DNA from: Desulfobacteraceae bacterium
GTDB lineage: Bacteria > Desulfobacterota > Desulfobacteria > Desulfobacterales > SURF-7
Direction of reading: 5' to 3'
DNA length: 45,078 nt
Assembly: GCA_003599865.1 (NCBI GenBank)
Contig: QZKS01000080.1
Location: forward strand, 1-45,078
Shown: positions 5,364 to 13,862 of the stretch, one piece after another
Numbering within the stretch: position 1 is the first letter of the stretch
Layout: the number at the start of each line of letters is the position of its first letter
Position numbers and translations under genes: made by a program
The notes under the pieces: generated by a model
What the model saw: only the letters and a program-made list of their open reading frames with translations
The model's database searches: none
What the model was told of the DNA's origin: nothing

Positions 5364-5415
5364 TTGACAGTAACCGCAACAGCATATAAACAAATATTTA
5401 TATGCTGTTGCGGTT
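5364..5415 (+). promoter_or_regulatory. Promoter with 19-bp perfect inverted repeat, likely ArsR-family operator
   Basis: TTGACA at 5364-5369 is followed by a perfect palindrome: left arm AACCGCAACAGCATATAAA (5372-5390), 6-nt spacer, right arm 5397-5415. A -10-like TATAAA (5385-5390, spacer 15) or TAAACA (5387-5392, spacer 17) lies within the left arm. The AT-rich centre resembles SmtB/ArsR-type operators. There is no T-run, so it is unlikely to be a terminator for pqiC. It lies 58 bp upstream of the trxB-like gene, whose next gene encodes an ArsR-type repressor, so autoregulation is the simple reading. Confidence 0.65.
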
Positions 5416-5473
5416 CATATCCTAAATACCAGCTAAACATGCATCTGCTCAAAATAAAAAATGGAGGGGAGGT

Positions 5474-6433
5474 ATGCCGGAAAATCAGAAGTATGATTTG
5501 ATCATTATAGGTGGAGGTCCTGCGGGTTTGACTGCCGGAATTTATGCTATGCGCGCAGCGCTTAAAACCGTCTTGATCGAAAAAGGCGTCCCCGGCGGAC
5601 AAGTGGCCATCACCAAGGACGTTGAAAACTATCCAGGATTTATAGAAATCGGTGGATTCGATCTTTGCCAAAAATTCCTGCAACATGCCAAACATTACGA
5701 ACTCAAGATTTTAGAAGAAGAGGTACTCACGACCGAACCTGGGATTGAATATCACTCCGTGCGTTTCGCAGATGGGACCATATTGAAGGCCCACGCGATC
5801 ATCCTTGCGGCCGGCGGCACGGCACGAAAATTAAACATCCCGGGTGAAAACGAATATTTCGGCAAAGGGGTTTCATATTGCGCGACATGCGATGGTTTCT
5901 TTTTTCGCGATAAAACGGTTGCTGTTGTGGGCGGCGGTGACACCGCCTTGGAGGATGCTCTTTACCTTTCTAAGATAACCCGTAAAGTTTACCTTATTCA
6001 TCGACGAGAGGCTTTTCGGGGAAGCCGAATTCTTCAGCAACGTGTTTTCGCTGAGCCAAATATTGAAATTATATACAATACGGCAGTTACCGCAATCAAC
6101 GGTGGCGACAAGGGCGTCCGCAATATCTCTATCAAAAACCTGGAATCCGGTGGTCAGAGCAATATTGATCTTGAGGGTGTTTTTATTTTTGTCGGCTTCG
6201 CGCCTAATAATCAAATCGTTCCTAAAGGAATAAAAATCAGTAAAACAGGTTATGTCATTACCGACGAAAAATGTGAGACAGATATCCCAGGTGTTTTTGC
6301 CGTAGGAGACCTTCGTCAAAAATATGCCAATCAGATTGTTCTTGCCGCCGCAGATGGTTGTACGGCGTCCCTGGCGGCTGCGCACTATATTGAAGCCCGT
6401 AAAGCGGCTTTACGGGTTAGAATGTTGGGTTGA
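5474..6433 (+). CDS. trxB: Thioredoxin-disulfide reductase-like flavoprotein
   Basis: 319 aa; NADPH-dependent FAD enzyme that reduces a thioredoxin-type partner. Visible: N-terminal FAD motif GGGPAG at residues ~12-17, redox-active CATC (SYCATCDGFFF) near residue 136, NAD(P)H motif GGGDTA near 155, HRREAFR for NADPH phosphate recognition, and C-terminal FAD motif GVFAVGDLR. The length is typical. The start is fixed by a strong GGAGGGGAGG ribosome-binding site 1-2 nt before the ATG region. It is the first gene of the Sec operon, with arsR starting 3 bp after its stop, and is likely the electron source for the Sec proteins downstream. The active site has two Cys, not Sec. Confidence 0.93.
   Translation: MPENQKYDLIIIGGGPAGLTAGIYAMRAALKTVLIEKGVPGGQVAITKDVENYPGFIEIGGFDLCQKFLQHAKHYELKILEEEVLTTEPGIEYHSVRFADGTILKAHAIILAAGGTARKLNIPGENEYFGKGVSYCATCDGFFFRDKTVAVVGGGDTALEDALYLSKITRKVYLIHRREAFRGSRILQQRVFAEPNIEIIYNTAVTAINGGDKGVRNISIKNLESGGQSNIDLEGVFIFVGFAPNNQIVPKGIKISKTGYVITDEKCETDIPGVFAVGDLRQKYANQIVLAAADGCTASLAAAHYIEARKAALRVRMLG
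6396..6416 (+). other. 9-bp perfect hairpin at the trxB 3' end
   Basis: CCCGTAAAG (6396-6404), a 3-nt loop and CTTTACGGG (6408-6416) lie inside the last trxB codons, 20 bp before the arsR start. There is no T-run. It could adjust arsR translation or mRNA processing between the two genes; function not shown. Confidence 0.4.
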
Positions 6434-6436
6434 AAA

Positions 6437-6796
6437 ATGGGTAGAACGCAAAACATTTCATCAAATGACGATACAGACCCGAGTGCAACGGTTCACAACG
6501 ATGATCTCCAAAGTGCCGCCTTTCTTGCTAAAAGTCTTTCCGACGGAAACCGTTTGAGGATACTGATTCTCATCAGCAGCGGCAGGAAATCGGTTTCCGC
6601 CATTGTCGAGGAACTTGGTTTATCACAACCTCTGGTGTCGCATCATCTGAAAGAGTTGAAGCGATCCTTGATGGTCAGGGTAGAGCGCGAGGGTCCTTTC
6701 ATTTACTACGAACTGGCGGATGCAAGGATATTGAATGTATTAAAAATCCTGAGTGAGATAGCAACGGACCTTTTATCTGATAGAAAAATGTTTTGA
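6437..6796 (+). CDS. ArsR/SmtB-family transcriptional regulator
   Basis: 119 aa. A winged helix-turn-helix covers residues ~35-95 (LAKSLSDGNRLRILILI, VSAIVEELGLSQPLVSHHLKELKRS, VRVEREGPFIYYELAD). The HTH core SQPLVSHHLKEL is the ArsR signature. The protein has no cysteine at all, so it cannot sense metals or reactive sulfur through Cys thiols as ArsR, BigR or SqrR do; a His/Asp/Glu site or a small-molecule signal is more likely. It sits second in the operon, 3 bp after trxB, and probably acts at the palindrome at 5372-5415. Confidence 0.88.
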   Translation: MGRTQNISSNDDTDPSATVHNDDLQSAAFLAKSLSDGNRLRILILISSGRKSVSAIVEELGLSQPLVSHHLKELKRSLMVRVEREGPFIYYELADARILNVLKILSEIATDLLSDRKMF

Positions 6797-6820
6797 ATGT
6801 AAAGGGGGCAAACCAACCGT

Positions 6821-7273
6821 ATGGACAAATTTTTTGAAATTATTGCCGACATGGCTCCGGAAGAGGCTTTATCAGAAATAACCAGGGTCTTGGGAAGGCT
6901 ATTGCAAGACCTGGATAATGAGGCACGAGAGCGCTTTTTGGTGAATTTTATCGGACAGTCCGAAGGTGACAAGCTTTCCGGAATGGTGCATTTATGACTG
7001 GCGGAATGTATGGGCGAAGGTGTCGACCCAACGCAGATGTGCCATAGCCTGGTGGATAAAGTAGCCAGGTCCGAGCAGCTTTTGGCGATTGCCGATCCGG
7101 ATCTGCTGGCACTTTTCGAAGACTGGCTGGAGGAACTGGAAGCGGAAGCAATGGCATTGATGAAAAATGAGTCGTTAGATGACGGTACACTGGCCGAAAA
7201 GCTCGGTTTATCGCGCAGAGGAGCGACATTTCTGCTTTCAAAACTCGAAAGGAAGAAGAAGCAATCCGGTTAA
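6821..7273 (+). CDS. Predicted selenoprotein of unknown family (Sec59, ULAEC motif)
   Basis: 150 aa if the in-frame UGA at 6995-6997 is read as Sec. ATG 6821 and the downstream open frame (from 7010) share one phase, and coding sense continues without a break: KLSGMVHL-U-LAECMGEGVD. The result is U-x3-C (Sec59, Cys63), with another Cys at residue 74. A SECIS-like hairpin with an AGGUG apical loop follows at 7011-7030. The N-terminal half is acidic and helical (MAPEEALSEITRVLGRLLQDL); the C-terminus LAEKLGLSRRGATFLLSKLERKKK resembles a small HTH. No signal peptide, so cytoplasmic. I do not recognise the family. It lies 24 bp after arsR and 5 bp before the rhodanese-DsbD gene. Confidence 0.78.
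6995..7030 (+). promoter_or_regulatory. Sec UGA with bacterial SECIS-like hairpin
   Basis: UGA at 6995-6997. After 13 nt, TGGG (7011-7014) plus CGA (7015-7017) pair with TCG (7023-7025) plus CCCA (7027-7030), with A7026 bulged. The apical loop is AGGTG (7018-7022), starting 20 nt after the UGA. A GGU-containing apical loop about 16-22 nt after the codon is what SelB recognises in known bacterial SECIS elements. Confidence 0.7.
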
Positions 7274-7278
7274 AAAAT

Positions 7279-9069
7279 ATGAAAAAACAAACTTCATTTT
7301 TGTTGGCACTGACATCCGTCATGATCACGATCCTTTCGGTTTGGTACATTCAACGCCCCATCGAACCGAAGCAGACCACCTGGGAAGATGTAATCGTCGA
7401 GGCTGAGGCCGGCGGTTATAAGATCATTACAACTGAAGAACTTGCCGACCGCTATCGCAAAGATGCCTCAAACCTCATGTTGATCGACACCCGTCAGGAG
7501 TGGGAGTATCGCACCGGACATATTGAAGGTGCGCTTAATTTTTCCATGAAACCCACATGGTGGGAACGCCGGCAGAAAGCTTCGCAATTAAAAGATTTTT
7601 TAGGACCGAATCCAGAGCGTGTCCTGATCTTTTACTGAGCAGGCTTGACATGAGTCCGCAGCGACTCGGCGGCCAGGGTGGCCGTATCACTTGGTTATAA
7701 AAACGTCTACCGTGACCCATACGGATTCCCAAAATGGCAGGAAAATGGCCTGCCTATCGCCGGCAGTCCGATGGGACCAACAACTTCCGGTGAACCATCA
7801 ACGAAAACGGCAGCCGACCGATCCCTCCAGGGCTGGACCATGCTCTGGACCCTCCTTGGCATTTTCGCAGGCGGTGTGGCGCTGAACCTGACTCCCTGCG
7901 TCTATCCGATGATTCCCATCACGGTTTCGTTTTTCGGAGGTCGGGCAGCAAAGGGAAAGCCCAGCCAGATCAAGCTGGTATTGCATGGAATCTGCTACCT
8001 GACCGGCCTGTCCCTGACCAACTCCATTCTTGGAGTGGTCGCCTCACTTACCGGCGGCCTGATGGGGGCACTGCTTCAAAATCCCATCGTTCCGGCCCTG
8101 GTGGCCGGCGTCCTGATCCTGTTCGCTACCAGTCTCTTCGGGCTTTGGGAATTACGCCTGCCCGGAGCCTTGACGCAAGCCGCCGGCAAATCCTACACCG
8201 GCTATTTCGGCAGCCTGTTCATGGGCCTTACCTTAGGAGTTGTGGCAGCCCCCTGCATCGGCCCCTTTGTGCTGGGGCTGCTGACATGGGTAGCCGGTAT
8301 GGGTAATCCATGGATTGGTTTTCTGGTTTTCTTTATTCTCAGTTTAGGCCTGGGTCTGCCCCTTTTTATACTGGCGCTCTTTTCCGGACAGCTTCAACGA
8401 CTGCCTAAGGCAGGCGGCTGGATGCTGTGGGTGCGCAAATTGATGGGCTGGGTTCTTGTCGGTATGGCGGCATATTTCATCCGGCCGATTTTGCCCGACA
8501 TCATGAAAGTCATACTGCCGGTTGCCGTAACCCTTGCTGCAGGTCTGCATCTGGGATGGTTAGACAGAAATCAGGCAAGCTTTAAAGCCTTTCCCTGGTT
8601 AAAAACCATTGTCGGTACCGGATGTCTGATCCTTGCCACTTTCTGGATCACCAGTTGGGCCATGCGCGGGCCGGGGATCGAGTGGTATTCGTATTCGGAG
8701 CAAACCCTTCAGCAGGCGGTCGCCCAGAAAAAGCCGGTGATCATCGATTTTTACGCCGATTGGTGCACACCATGCAGGGAACTGGAGGAAACGACCTTTT
8801 ATCACGCCGACGTGGTCCGTCAGGCCCGGCAGAATTTTATTATGGTAAAGGTTGATGTAACCCAGGCCGGCGATCCATTTCAGGAACAGCTTTTAAAACA
8901 ATACGGTATCAAGGGGGTGCCTACCATCGTTTTTCTGGATGCGCGGGGTAAGGAACGTACGGATCTGCGCCTGGTGGACTATCTGCCGCCCGAATCATTC
9001 CTGAATCATATGGCCGCATTACAGGAATCCGTTTCCACACGGAATCACCAACCCCGGAAGACACAATGA
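7279..9069 (+). CDS. Predicted double-Sec rhodanese fused to DsbD-like transporter and thioredoxin
   Basis: 596 aa with two in-frame UGAs (7636-7638, 7651-7653) read as Sec120 and Sec125. Order: signal anchor (residues ~7-26), rhodanese domain (~45-165), CcdA/DsbD membrane domain (~190-460) and C-terminal thioredoxin (~475-580, WCTPC at 495-499, Cys496/Cys499). The rhodanese active-site loop spans the UGAs: LIFY-U-AGLT-U-VRSDSAA, then LGYKNVYRDPYGFPKW, matching the usual YCxGxxCxxS loop with both Cys replaced. Membrane cysteines are Cys207 (NLTPCVYP) and Cys326 (AAPCIGPF). Stopping at either UGA would cut the rhodanese before its catalytic residue. DsbD-type proteins move electrons from cytoplasmic thioredoxin to the periplasm; here the acceptor is probably the attached rhodanese/thioredoxin. 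The GTG at 7678 is not a start. Confidence 0.85.
7636..7685 (+). promoter_or_regulatory. Two Sec UGAs with overlapping candidate SECIS hairpins
   Basis: UGA1 (7636-7638): TGAGTC (7651-7656) pairs with GACTCG (7663-7668) around loop CGCAGC, 18 nt after UGA1; UGA2 itself lies in this stem. UGA2 (7651-7653): GCGGCC (7669-7674) pairs with GGCCGT (7680-7685) around loop AGGGT, 21 nt after UGA2. The second has the GGU-type loop and is the better SECIS candidate; the first lacks a U in the loop and is weaker, so one element may serve both codons. Confidence 0.5.
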
Positions 9070-9080
9070 AGGAGATGATC

Positions 9081-9401
9081 ATGCTCAAAGTCCGCTTTTT
9101 TCTCAATGAGCCGAATGGCAGTCCCTGAAAGCATTTCAAACGGATGATGCCTAGGCTGGGCGCAAAATATCAGATTGAAATCGATATCACCTCAAAACCC
9201 AAAAATGATTACCAGACCGACGAATACTTCGAGCTGGAACTGCCTGTGGCACCGGCGGTCATGGTGGGCGATGAGATTGTGGTGGAAGGGGCAGATGTGT
9301 CTGAACACGAAGTGGAAGTATGCATTTGCCGCCTGTTGGGGCTGCCGGAACCCGAACCGCCGAAAAAAGGAATACTGCGCCGTTTATTAAAAACAGATTA
9401 A
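9081..9401 (+). CDS. Predicted thioredoxin-like selenoprotein (SPU motif)
   Basis: 106 aa with an in-frame UGA at 9126-9128 as Sec16: MLKVRFFLNEPNGSP-U-KHFKRMMPRLG. The ATG at 9081 follows GGAG (9071-9074) and shares its phase with the open frame after the UGA. Secondary structure and the LPVAPAVMVGDEIVVEG stretch (cis-Pro position of thioredoxin folds) suggest a small thioredoxin/glutaredoxin-like redox protein, with a C-terminal CIC motif (VEVCICRLLGL). There is no signal peptide, so it is probably the cytoplasmic shuttle between the TrxB-like reductase and the DsbD domain. It begins 11 bp after the rhodanese-DsbD gene and ends the operon before a hairpin terminator. The internal ATG at 9144 would lose the active site. 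Confidence 0.78.
9126..9164 (+). promoter_or_regulatory. Sec UGA with weak SECIS-like hairpin
   Basis: UGA 9126-9128. TGC (9148-9150) and CT (9151-9152) can pair with GG (9159-9160) and GCA (9162-9164), with C9161 bulged, leaving loop AGGCTG about 24 nt after the UGA. The stem is short; only position and loop type support it. Confidence 0.35.
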
Positions 9402-10966: not shown

Positions 10967-13732
10967 TTACATTCTTTCCAATCGAACAGCACAGGCCTTA
11001 TATTCGGCTGTTAACGTAAAAGGGTCAAAGGCTGCGTTGGTCAGCCAGTTGGCATTGCCTTCATTAAAGTGGAATGCCATCCATACCATGCCTTCCGGCA
11101 CTTCCGGTGTGACGTTCGCTTTTACGCAAACCGCTCCGCGTCTTGATTTTACCTGGATTCTTTCACCATGTTCTATACTCATTCGACTTGCATCCGCAAG
11201 TGATATATCCGCTGTTTCCTCCCCCAGAAGGTCATTCAAACCTTCACAGCGTCCTGTCTGGGTCCGCGTATGGTAATGATACAGCCGCCTGCCGGTACTG
11301 AGTACCAGCGGATACTCCTCGTCCGGAACTTCCGCAGGAGGTGTCCAGTCAGCCGGAGAAAACCGTCCCAGTCCGCAGGTGAAGTTACCGGATCGATGGA
11401 GAAAGGGCGTACCGGGATGATTTTCGGTCGGACAAGGCCATTGCAAACCATCTTCCTGGATTCTGTGATATTTGATTCCTCCCAGATTAGGGGCCAGCAT
11501 GGAAATTTCCGTATCCCAGATTTCTTTCCCACTGTCGGCTTTCCAGTCATGACCGAACCGTTTGGCGATCTCCCTGAAGATCCACCAGTTTGGTTTGGCA
11601 ACTCCCGGCGGCGGGCTTGCCGTGCGGACACGGCTGACCCTTCTTTCGCTGTTGGTAAAAGTGCCGTCATTTTCACTCCAGGCAGCAGCCGGCAGAATTA
11701 CGTGGGCGAATCGGGTGGTTTCCGTCTCAAAGATATCCTGACATACGATAAATTCGGCTGATTTCAGTTCATGGGCCACCTTGTTCATGTCCGGTTCCGT
11801 GTTGGCCAGATTTTCCCCGAAAATGTAAAACCCCCTGACACGACCATTGGTCAACCCGTGCATCATTTCCGGAATCATCAATCCCGGTTTATCCGACATT
11901 CCGGTGACACCCCAGGCGGTTTCAAATTTTTTCCGGGCAGCCGGATCATCCACTTTCTGATAACCCGGATACACGTTGGGGAGAGCGCCCATATCGCAGG
12001 CGCCCTGAACATTATTCTGTCCCCGAAGCGGGTTGACGCCACCATATTCCATTCCCATATTGCCGAGAAGCATCTGCAGATTGGCAACCGTCATGACATT
12101 GTTTTTGCCGCATGTGTGTTCCGTAATACCCAGGGTATAGCAGACCATCACCGGTTTGACGGAGGCAAGTTCCCTTGCCGTCTCCCGGATGATGCCCGCT
12201 TCAATCCCGCAAATTTCAGAAGCACGCTCCGGGGGGTATTCCCCAACCTTTTCCGATAGCGCTTCAAATCCGGTACATCGGGTGGAAACAAATTCTTGAT
12301 CATACAAATTCTCCCGGATCAGCACATGCATAATGGAATTCAGCAGTGCAATATCGCTTCCGACCTTGAGCGGCAGATGACGGGTCGCAAAATTCACAAG
12401 GCGATGCCTGCGGGGATCGATCACGATCAGTTTCGCACCATTTTGAACCGCATTCTTGACAAATGTTGCTGCAACCGGATGTGCTTCCGTCATATTGGAA
12501 CCGATCACCAGAAACATACGGGCTTTGGAAAACTCTGAAAATGAATTGGTCATTGCGCCTGATCCGAAAGTTGTCGCCAGACCGGCGACGGTAGGAGCAT
12601 GTCAGGTACGGGCGCAATGATCGATATTATTGGTTTTGAACACCGCCCGGAAAAGCTTCTGCATCTGATAGGAGTCTTCGTTGATGCTGCGGGCGCAACT
12701 GACACCGGCCAGGGCGTCCGGCCCGCTCTGGTTGATGATTTCAATGAATTTGGAGCTGACCAGATCAAGGGCCTCATCCCAGGAAGCTTCCCTGAATCTA
12801 TCTTTGTCCCGGATCAATGGCGTTTTCAGGCGCTCATCCGAATAAATAAAATCAAACCCGAAGCGACCCTTGACGCACAGACGCCCTTTGTTCGGGGAGC
12901 CGTCTTCCACACCGGTCACTTTGACAATTCGCTTGTCCCGGACGTGCAGGTTTAACTGACAACCCACCCCGCAATAAGGGCATGTGGTCCGTACTTTTTC
13001 AGAATCCCATGGCCGCCATTGGTATCGTGATTTTTTTTCAACCAGGGCACCCACCGGACATGCCTGCACGCATTCCCCGCAAAATACGCAATCCGAATCC
13101 TTGAGAGGTACATCGGACCCGGCAATGACTTTCGGGTCCGTGTCCTGATTACCCAATCGAATGGCTTTGTTGACCTGGATTTCATTGCAGGCCTGAATGC
13201 ATCGTCCGCATAAAATACAGCGTGAAAAATCCCTGATAATCAGCGGATTGACGGTTTCCATCGGATAGTTGACCGGCTTTTTGGCGGATGTCCCTCCTTG
13301 AACCTGATACTGGTAGGCCAGATCCTGAAGCCGGCAGTCACCCCATGCAGGACAAAGTTCTTCGGCGCCGTCATCGGTCAATACTTTCGCTTGAAACAAA
13401 GACCAGTCCCTTTCCTGATTGGTTCCGATAGAGCAATTGTGATTTCCGGATGCAAGAAACTTTCGGATGGTTTCCTTTCTGGATTCGATTACCCTGGCGG
13501 ATTCCGTTAACACAAACATTTTGTCCTGAGCATGGGTATTGCAGGCCGTTGCCAGTTCCGGCAGGCCATCAATTTCAACAACACAGACACGGCATGTGCC
13601 GGTTGGTGATGCGTCTTTGAGATGACACAAAGTGGGTATCCGGATGTTGTTTTCCGCAGCAACTTCCAGGATGGTGCTGCCCGGATTAAACCTATATTTT
13701 TTATGATTGATTACGATTTGCCGCTGTTCCAT
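10967..13732 (-). CDS. fdhA: Sec-containing formate dehydrogenase, catalytic subunit
   Basis: 921 aa with in-frame UGA at 12604-12602 as Sec377 in DHCART-U-HAPTVAGLATTFGSGA, the canonical formate dehydrogenase active site. It oxidises formate to CO2 at a Mo/W-bis-pterin centre. Order: [2Fe-2S] domain (CHLKDASPTGTCRVC), His-Cys3 cluster region (HNCSIG...CPAWGDC), two [4Fe-4S] motifs (CILCGRCIQAC, CVFCGECVQACPVGA), a further cluster CPYCGVGC, then the molybdopterin oxidoreductase and C-terminal dinucleotide-binding domain. The NuoG-like N-terminus indicates a soluble, NAD- or ferredoxin-linked type; no beta subunit lies nearby. ATG 13732 has GGAG 9 nt upstream; ATG 13747 is an alternative. A conventional gene call would split it at the UGA. 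Confidence 0.95.
12573..12604 (-). promoter_or_regulatory. SECIS element of fdhA
   Basis: Reading the minus strand: UGA (12604-12602), 12 nt, then GTCGCC (12589-12584), loop GGTCT (12583-12579), GGCGAC (12578-12573). A 6-bp perfect stem with a GGUCU loop 18 nt after the codon closely matches the E. coli fdhF SECIS. Confidence 0.88.
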
Positions 13733-13862
13733 ATCAACTGTCTCCATTCATGGTTCCGCCATCGATTCCCGGTATCCTCTTTCAGGGCCCGTGCCTCCAT
13801 TCGAACATTATTTTAAGCATATTCGGATTCTTTTTCTGTTTTTCAATGATTATGCAGGTTGC

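Follow-up and report, generated by a model that had tools for sequence, protein, structure and literature searches.

What is encoded by three adjacent genes whose reading frames run on through in-frame UGA codons, and what would such a set be for? The question is raised by a 45,078-nucleotide stretch of DNA from a Desulfobacteraceae bacterium (GenBank assembly GCA_003599865.1, contig QZKS01000080.1; the whole stretch is called the window below), which corresponds to contig C43 in a draft genome of 5.0 Mb, labelled G000. Judged from its sequence, the locus is a complete Tso operon, a system that already has a name. The NCBIfam models for TsoR, TsoA, TsoB and TsoC all score above their cut-offs, in this order, after a trxB gene. 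The initial annotation held that no system with such a set had been described; this was wrong, since Tso is named in NCBIfam and, in the part of a 2026 review that deals with it (PMC13188914), TsoA, TsoB and TsoC are listed as a "three selenoprotein operon", with Haft and Tolstoy 2025 cited there. The window operon is one more genome for a named system; relative to the models and to that part of the review, what is contributed here is a likely operator, cysteine counterparts of two of the selenoproteins and the pairing of TsoR with TsoA.

Operon layout and UGA decoding

The operon runs on the plus strand in the order trxB-tsoR-tsoA-tsoB-tsoC, its genes separated by 3 to 24 bases or, in one case, overlapping by 4. 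The head gene, trxB (5474-6433), encodes an accessory thioredoxin-disulfide reductase (TIGR01292, 367.1 bits against a cut-off of 343.45), and tsoR (6437-6796) an ArsR/SmtB-type regulator (NF045707, 160.8 bits against 115). Three predicted selenoproteins follow: TsoA (6821-7273; NF045695, 206 bits against 170), with U59 at the UGA at 6995, within HLULAEC; TsoB (7279-9069; NF045694, 968.1 bits against 805), a rhodanese/DsbD fusion with U120 (UGA at 7636) and U125 (UGA at 7651) in the loop FYUAGLTUVRSD; and TsoC (9066-9401; NF045708, 148.8 bits against 45), a probable thioredoxin-fold protein with U21 (UGA at 9126) in NEPNGSPU. All gene and UGA coordinates of the initial annotation agree with the sequence, and read-through does yield the sensible motifs that it described (ULAEC, the rhodanese-loop U-x4-U as UAGLTU, and SPU). 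Tso membership is defined by a LULAXC motif in TsoA, UxxxxU in TsoB, NEPxGxxU in TsoC, an adjacent upstream TsoR and a selenocysteine (Sec)-decoding trait; each is found here, the last as selA, selB, selC and selD in the host genome.

The proposal of three adjacent selenoproteins is borne out by UGA conservation, hairpins and Sec machinery, and comparative evidence strongly supports decoding of all four in-frame UGAs as Sec. Two samples were compared: the window plus 80 loci fetched with TsoB as query (the locus sample), and 395 genomes scanned for TsoA and TsoC (the phylum sample). Among the loci, the UGA is kept in all 20 TsoA copies that reach the site, the UGA pair in all 27 TsoB copies long enough to include the loop, and the TsoC codon in 22 of 22 copies plus 3 paralogues. 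Two plain DsbD proteins, L046 and L049, whose match to TsoB begins past the rhodanese loop, were left out of the TsoB count although a pairwise alignment placed a Cys pair on U120/U125. Across the phylum, 46 of the 395 genomes have TsoA matches (52 in total), with exactly one TGA in 43 of 43 site-spanning matches; eight of the nine matches that have no TGA begin after the Sec column, and the ninth (in G062) spans the column without a ULAEC-like motif. TsoC matches occur in 31 of the 395 genomes, and 41 of the 42 matches carry one TGA. A chance in-frame TGA is excluded because all 58 distinct codon-spanning TsoA copies, two of them partial, carry TGA.

The Sec machinery of the host comprises selA (638.8 bits), selD (372.8 bits; this gene itself holds one TGA), two SelB genes over the cut-off (381 and 279.1 bits) and two tRNA-Sec genes. 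Co-occurrence with selA is a weak test, because 359 of the 395 phylum genomes have this gene: it is present in 39 of the 41 with a UGA-bearing TsoA and in 29 of the 30 with a UGA-bearing TsoC. SelB is matched over the cut-off in both TsoA genomes that have no selA, which are 62% and 90% complete. Aligned Cys residues, which the initial annotation expected at the UGA positions of homologues, were found for TsoB and TsoC, in distant relatives only: in a Plesiomonas plasmid rhodanese (WP_152135606.1, 35% identical), Cys residues align with U120 and with U125, and a TsoC-like domain (29 bits, under the cut-off) that has Cys in place of Sec is fused to DUF5714 in a genome that has no selA match. 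Two results speak against Sec decoding: a TsoA with Cys at the Sec position was sought in the 395 phylum genomes and none was found, and G042, a 67% complete genome with a UGA-bearing TsoC, has no selA match and no SelB over the cut-off.

The selenocysteine insertion sequence (SECIS)-like hairpin proposed at 7011-7030, in tsoA on the plus strand, proves real. Over 58 sequences, 94.6% of 406 cells are paired, compared with 14.8-44.1% when the partner strand is slid, and 26 cells are changed on both sides, a number reached by none of 500 shuffles; counted by double-changed pairs, of which there are 4, the signal is less strong (reached by 13 of 500 shuffles). Two consecutive hairpins lie in tsoB on the same strand, at 7652-7667 and 7669-7685 (44 sequences, 11 pairs, 2 with double changes), and the second tsoB UGA overlaps the 5' stem of the former. 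In tsoC, a short SECIS-like hairpin occupies 9149-9161, also on the plus strand (43 sequences, 5 pairs, 2 with double changes). The covariation terms are small for the TsoB and TsoC hairpins.

The host genome has a further feature of its own: besides the two SelB genes, it holds two clearly different tRNA genes with a TCA anticodon. The set is located at L180 5738-7770 (G000:C38), G000:C23:35533-37425 and L001 1501-1598 (G000:C11), and C38 groups one of the tRNA genes with the second SelB, in the vicinity of a transporter judged by eye to be YedE-like. Another genome, G005, likewise has two SelB genes over the cut-off. This may be a second pair for Sec-type decoding, perhaps comparable to the tRNA-ReC systems that have been reported. 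Elsewhere in the window, 1.6 kb past tsoC, a gene for a formate dehydrogenase catalytic subunit (10970-13747, minus strand) has its own UGA, U382; it is identified by the motif HCARTUHAP obtained on read-through, which we take to be the usual catalytic-site motif.

TsoB and TsoC

The rhodanese and DsbD parts recognized in the initial annotation are indeed fused, together with a C-terminal thioredoxin domain, in one gene. In Pfam terms, TsoB consists of Rhodanese (residues 52-155; PF00581, 55 bits against 22.2), DsbD_TM (189-405; 134.2 bits against 27.1) and Thioredoxin from about residue 468, the last with the motif C496-x2-C499. A hydrophobic N-terminal segment (6-24) is preceded by MKKQ, so that, by the positive-inside rule, the rhodanese domain would lie outside. 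Among the 24 TsoB copies of at least 800 bits, C207, C239 and C326 are present in every one, and C496 and C499 in all 23 that reach this far. In solved rhodaneses, the residue aligned with U120 is the catalytic Cys; among these structures is 1qxn, which was deposited as sulfide dehydrogenase and which we take to be Sud, the periplasmic polysulfide carrier; U125 sits in a two-residue loop insertion relative to the solved structures. Where loci with close relatives of TsoB are named, the names belong to Desulfobacterota or Deltaproteobacteria; cultured Tso-bearing examples are Desulfoprunum benzoelyticum DSM 28570 (L022) and Desulforhopalus sp. IMCC35007 (L043).

TsoC is confidently predicted to adopt a thioredoxin fold: its model has a predicted local distance difference test (pLDDT) score of 90.3, and thioredoxins fill the top rows of a Foldseek search (probability 1.00, best E 1.1e-3, template-modelling score 0.52). 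No convincing relative emerged when the PDB was searched by sequence with profiles of TsoA and TsoC; a match to 7rdr, a designed repeat protein, at E 2.4e-8 was set aside, its score merely summing weak repeats.

Variants of TsoC occur in several genomes. The Cys-bearing TsoC-like domain fused to DUF5714 is encoded at L157 1721-2722, on the minus strand, in G004, the genome without a selA match, and DUF5714 is also found near TsoR-TsoA pairs in L134 and L137. A second TsoC paralogue, with the motif KGKTU, lies directly 3' of TsoC at L020 12168-12428, L021 12172-12435 and L043 12185-12445, and in L020, where it was tested, exceeds the TsoC cut-off with 112.2 bits. In the phylum sample, 11 of the 31 genomes with TsoC have a second TsoC match.

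TsoR, TsoA and the operator

Upstream of trxB lies an inverted repeat (5372-5415) with perfect 19-bp arms and a 6-nt centre, its core at 5384-5403 (ATATAAACAAATATTTATAT). Of 47 unique tso loci, 30 have, within 250 bp upstream of tsoR, a 20-bp palindrome of the form ATATAAAY-N4-RTTTATAT (at least 13 of 16 fixed positions); among 1521 control blocks from the same loci, 14 have it. The former count is partly circular, because the consensus came from those loci, and the control rate is not. The window palindrome stands outside the 30 because trxB precedes tsoR here, as in L010. This recurrent palindrome is likely to be the TsoR operator, and the window copy is a candidate for it. The strict core was found nowhere else in the 5.0-Mb genome, which yields no further TsoR targets by that handle. 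The suggestion that all five genes lie behind one promoter fits their tight spacing and promoter-like boxes picked by eye at 5364-5390 on the plus strand, TTGACA (5364-5369) and TATAAA (5385-5390, within the palindrome), but these boxes, 15 nt apart, are not listed by a sigma-70 scan limited to spacers of 16-18 nt. Promoter and terminator sites found by scanning are no more numerous than in shuffles.

TsoR is accompanied by TsoA with great regularity. Among the 59 TsoA copies with both ends (the split copies L024 and L036, and L131, which at 23 bits fell under the threshold, were dropped before counting), a TsoR-like gene ends at most 200 bp upstream in 57; in one of the remaining two it is 345 bp away, and the other has no room on its contig. 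Eight C-terminal TsoA homologues have a TsoR-like gene upstream at 115 to 936 bp. For divergent or stand-alone TsoA, 20 further loci were fetched (L123-L141 and L168): 18 have a TsoR-like gene of at least 65 bits, L131 has only a less similar ArsR-type gene (46 bits) at a distance of about 1.7 kb, and none has TsoB or TsoC beyond weak DsbD-like and thioredoxin-like matches (48.6 and 21.9 bits). TsoC is not matched in 21 of the 46 TsoA genomes, and TsoA is not matched in 6 of the 31 TsoC genomes. TsoA is thus tied to TsoR more than to TsoC, the phylum scan having covered TsoA and TsoC.

In TsoR, the thiolate metal site of ArsR/SmtB regulators has no counterpart in a conserved Cys, as judged from 59 strong matches, 25 of which, the window copy included, have no cysteine. 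The model for BigR-type sulfite/persulfide sensors, NF040642, is not reached by TsoR (42.5 against 155 bits). In TsoA, U59, C63 and C74 are present in all 20 close copies, and over 56 copies (the 58 minus two partial ones) U59 and C63 never vary and C74 hardly does. The TsoA model is all-helical (pLDDT 77.5, predicted template-modelling score 0.39); residues 92-150 match mostly DNA-binding helix-turn-helix domains, with Z of at most 7.0 and Foldseek E no better than 0.15, and this tail is treated as a lead only, because such scores are common according to the tool notes. It is possible, if doubtful, that TsoA is a Sec regulatory protein: it would act as a chalcogen sensor (U59-x3-C63, C74), have a helix-turn-helix-like tail and partner the cysteine-poor TsoR on ATATAAAY-N4-RTTTATAT. 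If so, Tso would be one of several operons in the phylum, for reactive sulfur or metalloids, under the control of a TsoR-TsoA module. Among the titles listed by one literature search on the point, none showed a bacterial selenoprotein that regulates transcription.

Short proteins resembling TsoA, with UMQMC at an apparent UGA, are encoded at L126 6883-7269 (minus strand), L127 6785-7159 and L129 3718-4092. In the same operons are genes for a TsoR-like regulator, for an ArsM-type methyltransferase (this one with an in-frame UGA) and, as tested in L126, for a VTT-domain protein. A variant palindrome, TTATATGAGC-TTAT-ACTCATATAA, lies about 40 bp upstream of the regulator in L126 and L129 and is near-identical in L127. 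The UxxxC of these proteins was rejected as the ULAEC site: in an alignment by eye from the right-hand end, its Cys falls on C74, which makes it a different motif.

Proposed function, alternatives and known relatives

We consider it fairly probable that the operon delivers reductant through the DsbD-like TsoB to periplasmic sulfane sulfur or related species, under repression by TsoR from the palindrome. Electrons would pass from NADPH to TrxB here, or to another reductase elsewhere, then to a cytoplasmic thioredoxin such as TsoC, across the membrane by C207/C326 to the periplasmic CxxC (C496/C499) and on to the U120/U125 pair, which would reduce, or take sulfur from, periplasmic sulfane-sulfur or related species. 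TsoR would repress the operon from the upstream palindrome; for TsoA, encoded beside TsoR, a sensing role seems weakly favoured over a place in the electron path. The trans-membrane relay proposed initially holds up in its anatomy (the conserved DsbD core and redox cysteines, the predicted thioredoxin fold of TsoC, and U120 on the rhodanese catalytic Cys), but electron flow along it is inferred.

Neighbouring genes bear on the substrate. Within 7 kb of TsoB, with some flanks short, 29 tso loci were compared with 52 control DsbD loci: a TVP38/VTT protein is near 10 of the former and 1 of the latter, TrxB near 4 and 0, an OlsE-like hydroxylase near 5 and 1, and an ArsM-type methyltransferase near 1 and 2. 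TrxB, counted initially as part of the system, is present at the window operon but is an occasional partner, not a core part. At eight inspected loci with TsoR-TsoA pairs and no TsoB, neighbours chosen by eye include DsrE with an in-frame UGA (3 loci), DUF5714 (2), TauE/SafE (1), GDT1 (1) and a thioredoxin-reductase-like Pyr_redox_2 protein (1), with nothing telling at two. The DsrE, TauE/SafE and thioredoxin-reductase-like neighbours support the sulfur handling suggested at the outset, but indirectly. The rhodanese domain and these sulfur-transfer neighbours speak for sulfane sulfur, the ArsR-type regulator and the TVP38 and ArsM-type neighbours for a metalloid; we put sulfur ahead, though narrowly, and the substrate is the weakest step of the proposal.

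Several points weigh against reductant delivery to periplasmic sulfur as drawn above. The membrane side of the rhodanese domain is inferred solely from the N-terminal anchor; the full-length DsbD model NF001419 is missed, at 253 against 330 bits, by a match covering TsoB residues 173-582; TrxB was not found near 25 of the 29 tso loci, some with short flanks; and the TVP38/VTT genes, with ArsM-type genes in some TsoA genomes, point equally to metals or metalloids.

The alternative that survives best, although we think it rather unlikely, builds on this last point: the operon would handle a metalloid or soft metal (arsenic, selenium, tellurium), with the Sec-rhodanese acting like rhodanese-fold arsenate reductases and TsoR responding to the metalloid. 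The ArsR/SmtB type of TsoR and the TVP38/VTT excess agree with it, as do an ArsP-family permease near one TsoA-like gene (L124) and the presence of 1t3k (E 0.0093), a plant Cdc25/arsenate reductase, among the rhodanese matches. However, no conserved thiolate metal site is to be expected in TsoR, because Cys is absent from 25 of the 59 strong matches, the window copy among them. The methyltransferases cut both ways: six times an ArsM-type selenoprotein is encoded on one contig with TsoA or a TsoA-like gene, and TsoA is present in 12 of 20 genomes with a UGA-bearing ArsM-type match of at least 230 bits, a threshold chosen after the list was seen, against 46 of 395 overall; but one family supplies 7 of those 12 genomes, ArsM-type genes are as scarce near tso loci as stated above, and none over the cut-off was found in the host genome. 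An association between tso and these selenoproteins is thus seen in the phylum (12 of 20, 7 of them from one family) but not at the loci (1 of 29 against 2 of 52).

General periplasmic thiol or peroxide repair, in which TsoB would be a Sec version of DsbD and its rhodanese only a redox module (a U120-U125 diselenide) that transfers no sulfur, seems improbable. Two chalcogens five residues apart in the loop of all 27 copies would suit a redox couple, and the DsbD cysteines are conserved, but so are the rhodanese fold and loop, and sulfur-transfer proteins stand beside TsoR-TsoA pairs elsewhere. That the UGAs are true stops, with the downstream frames as separate genes or decay, is extremely improbable and was rejected on TGA conservation (in every site-spanning copy, save one TsoC-like match with Cys) and covariation of the TsoA hairpin: start codons do follow each gene's UGA (7010, 7678 and 9144), but protein similarity continues through the UGAs, distant relatives have Cys at the sites and the genome has full Sec machinery.

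For the Tso system, the candidate operator makes the inducer testable by a simple reporter, and the Cys counterparts of TsoB and TsoC would allow expression without Sec. The steady TsoR-TsoA pairing suggests that Sec may be used in gene regulation besides catalysis. The window operon has the same genes and motifs as Tso at large (NF045707, NF045695, NF045694 and NF045708) and differs in its head-of-operon trxB, found near only 4 of 29 tso loci. The Sec-assisted organometallic (SAO) operon likewise combines several different selenoproteins but differs in that its components, as described in the corresponding part of PMC13188914, include ABC-transport and MerB-like proteins. With DsbD, TsoB shares the DsbD_TM core, the membrane cysteines and the C-terminal thioredoxin domain with its CxxC, but has a two-Sec rhodanese in place of the N-terminal reductase domain. 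The rhodaneses of the 1qxn type and Plesiomonas WP_152135606.1 hold their catalytic chalcogen at the same place as TsoB; in these proteins, by contrast, it is Cys, not Sec, and the domain is not fused to a transmembrane electron carrier.

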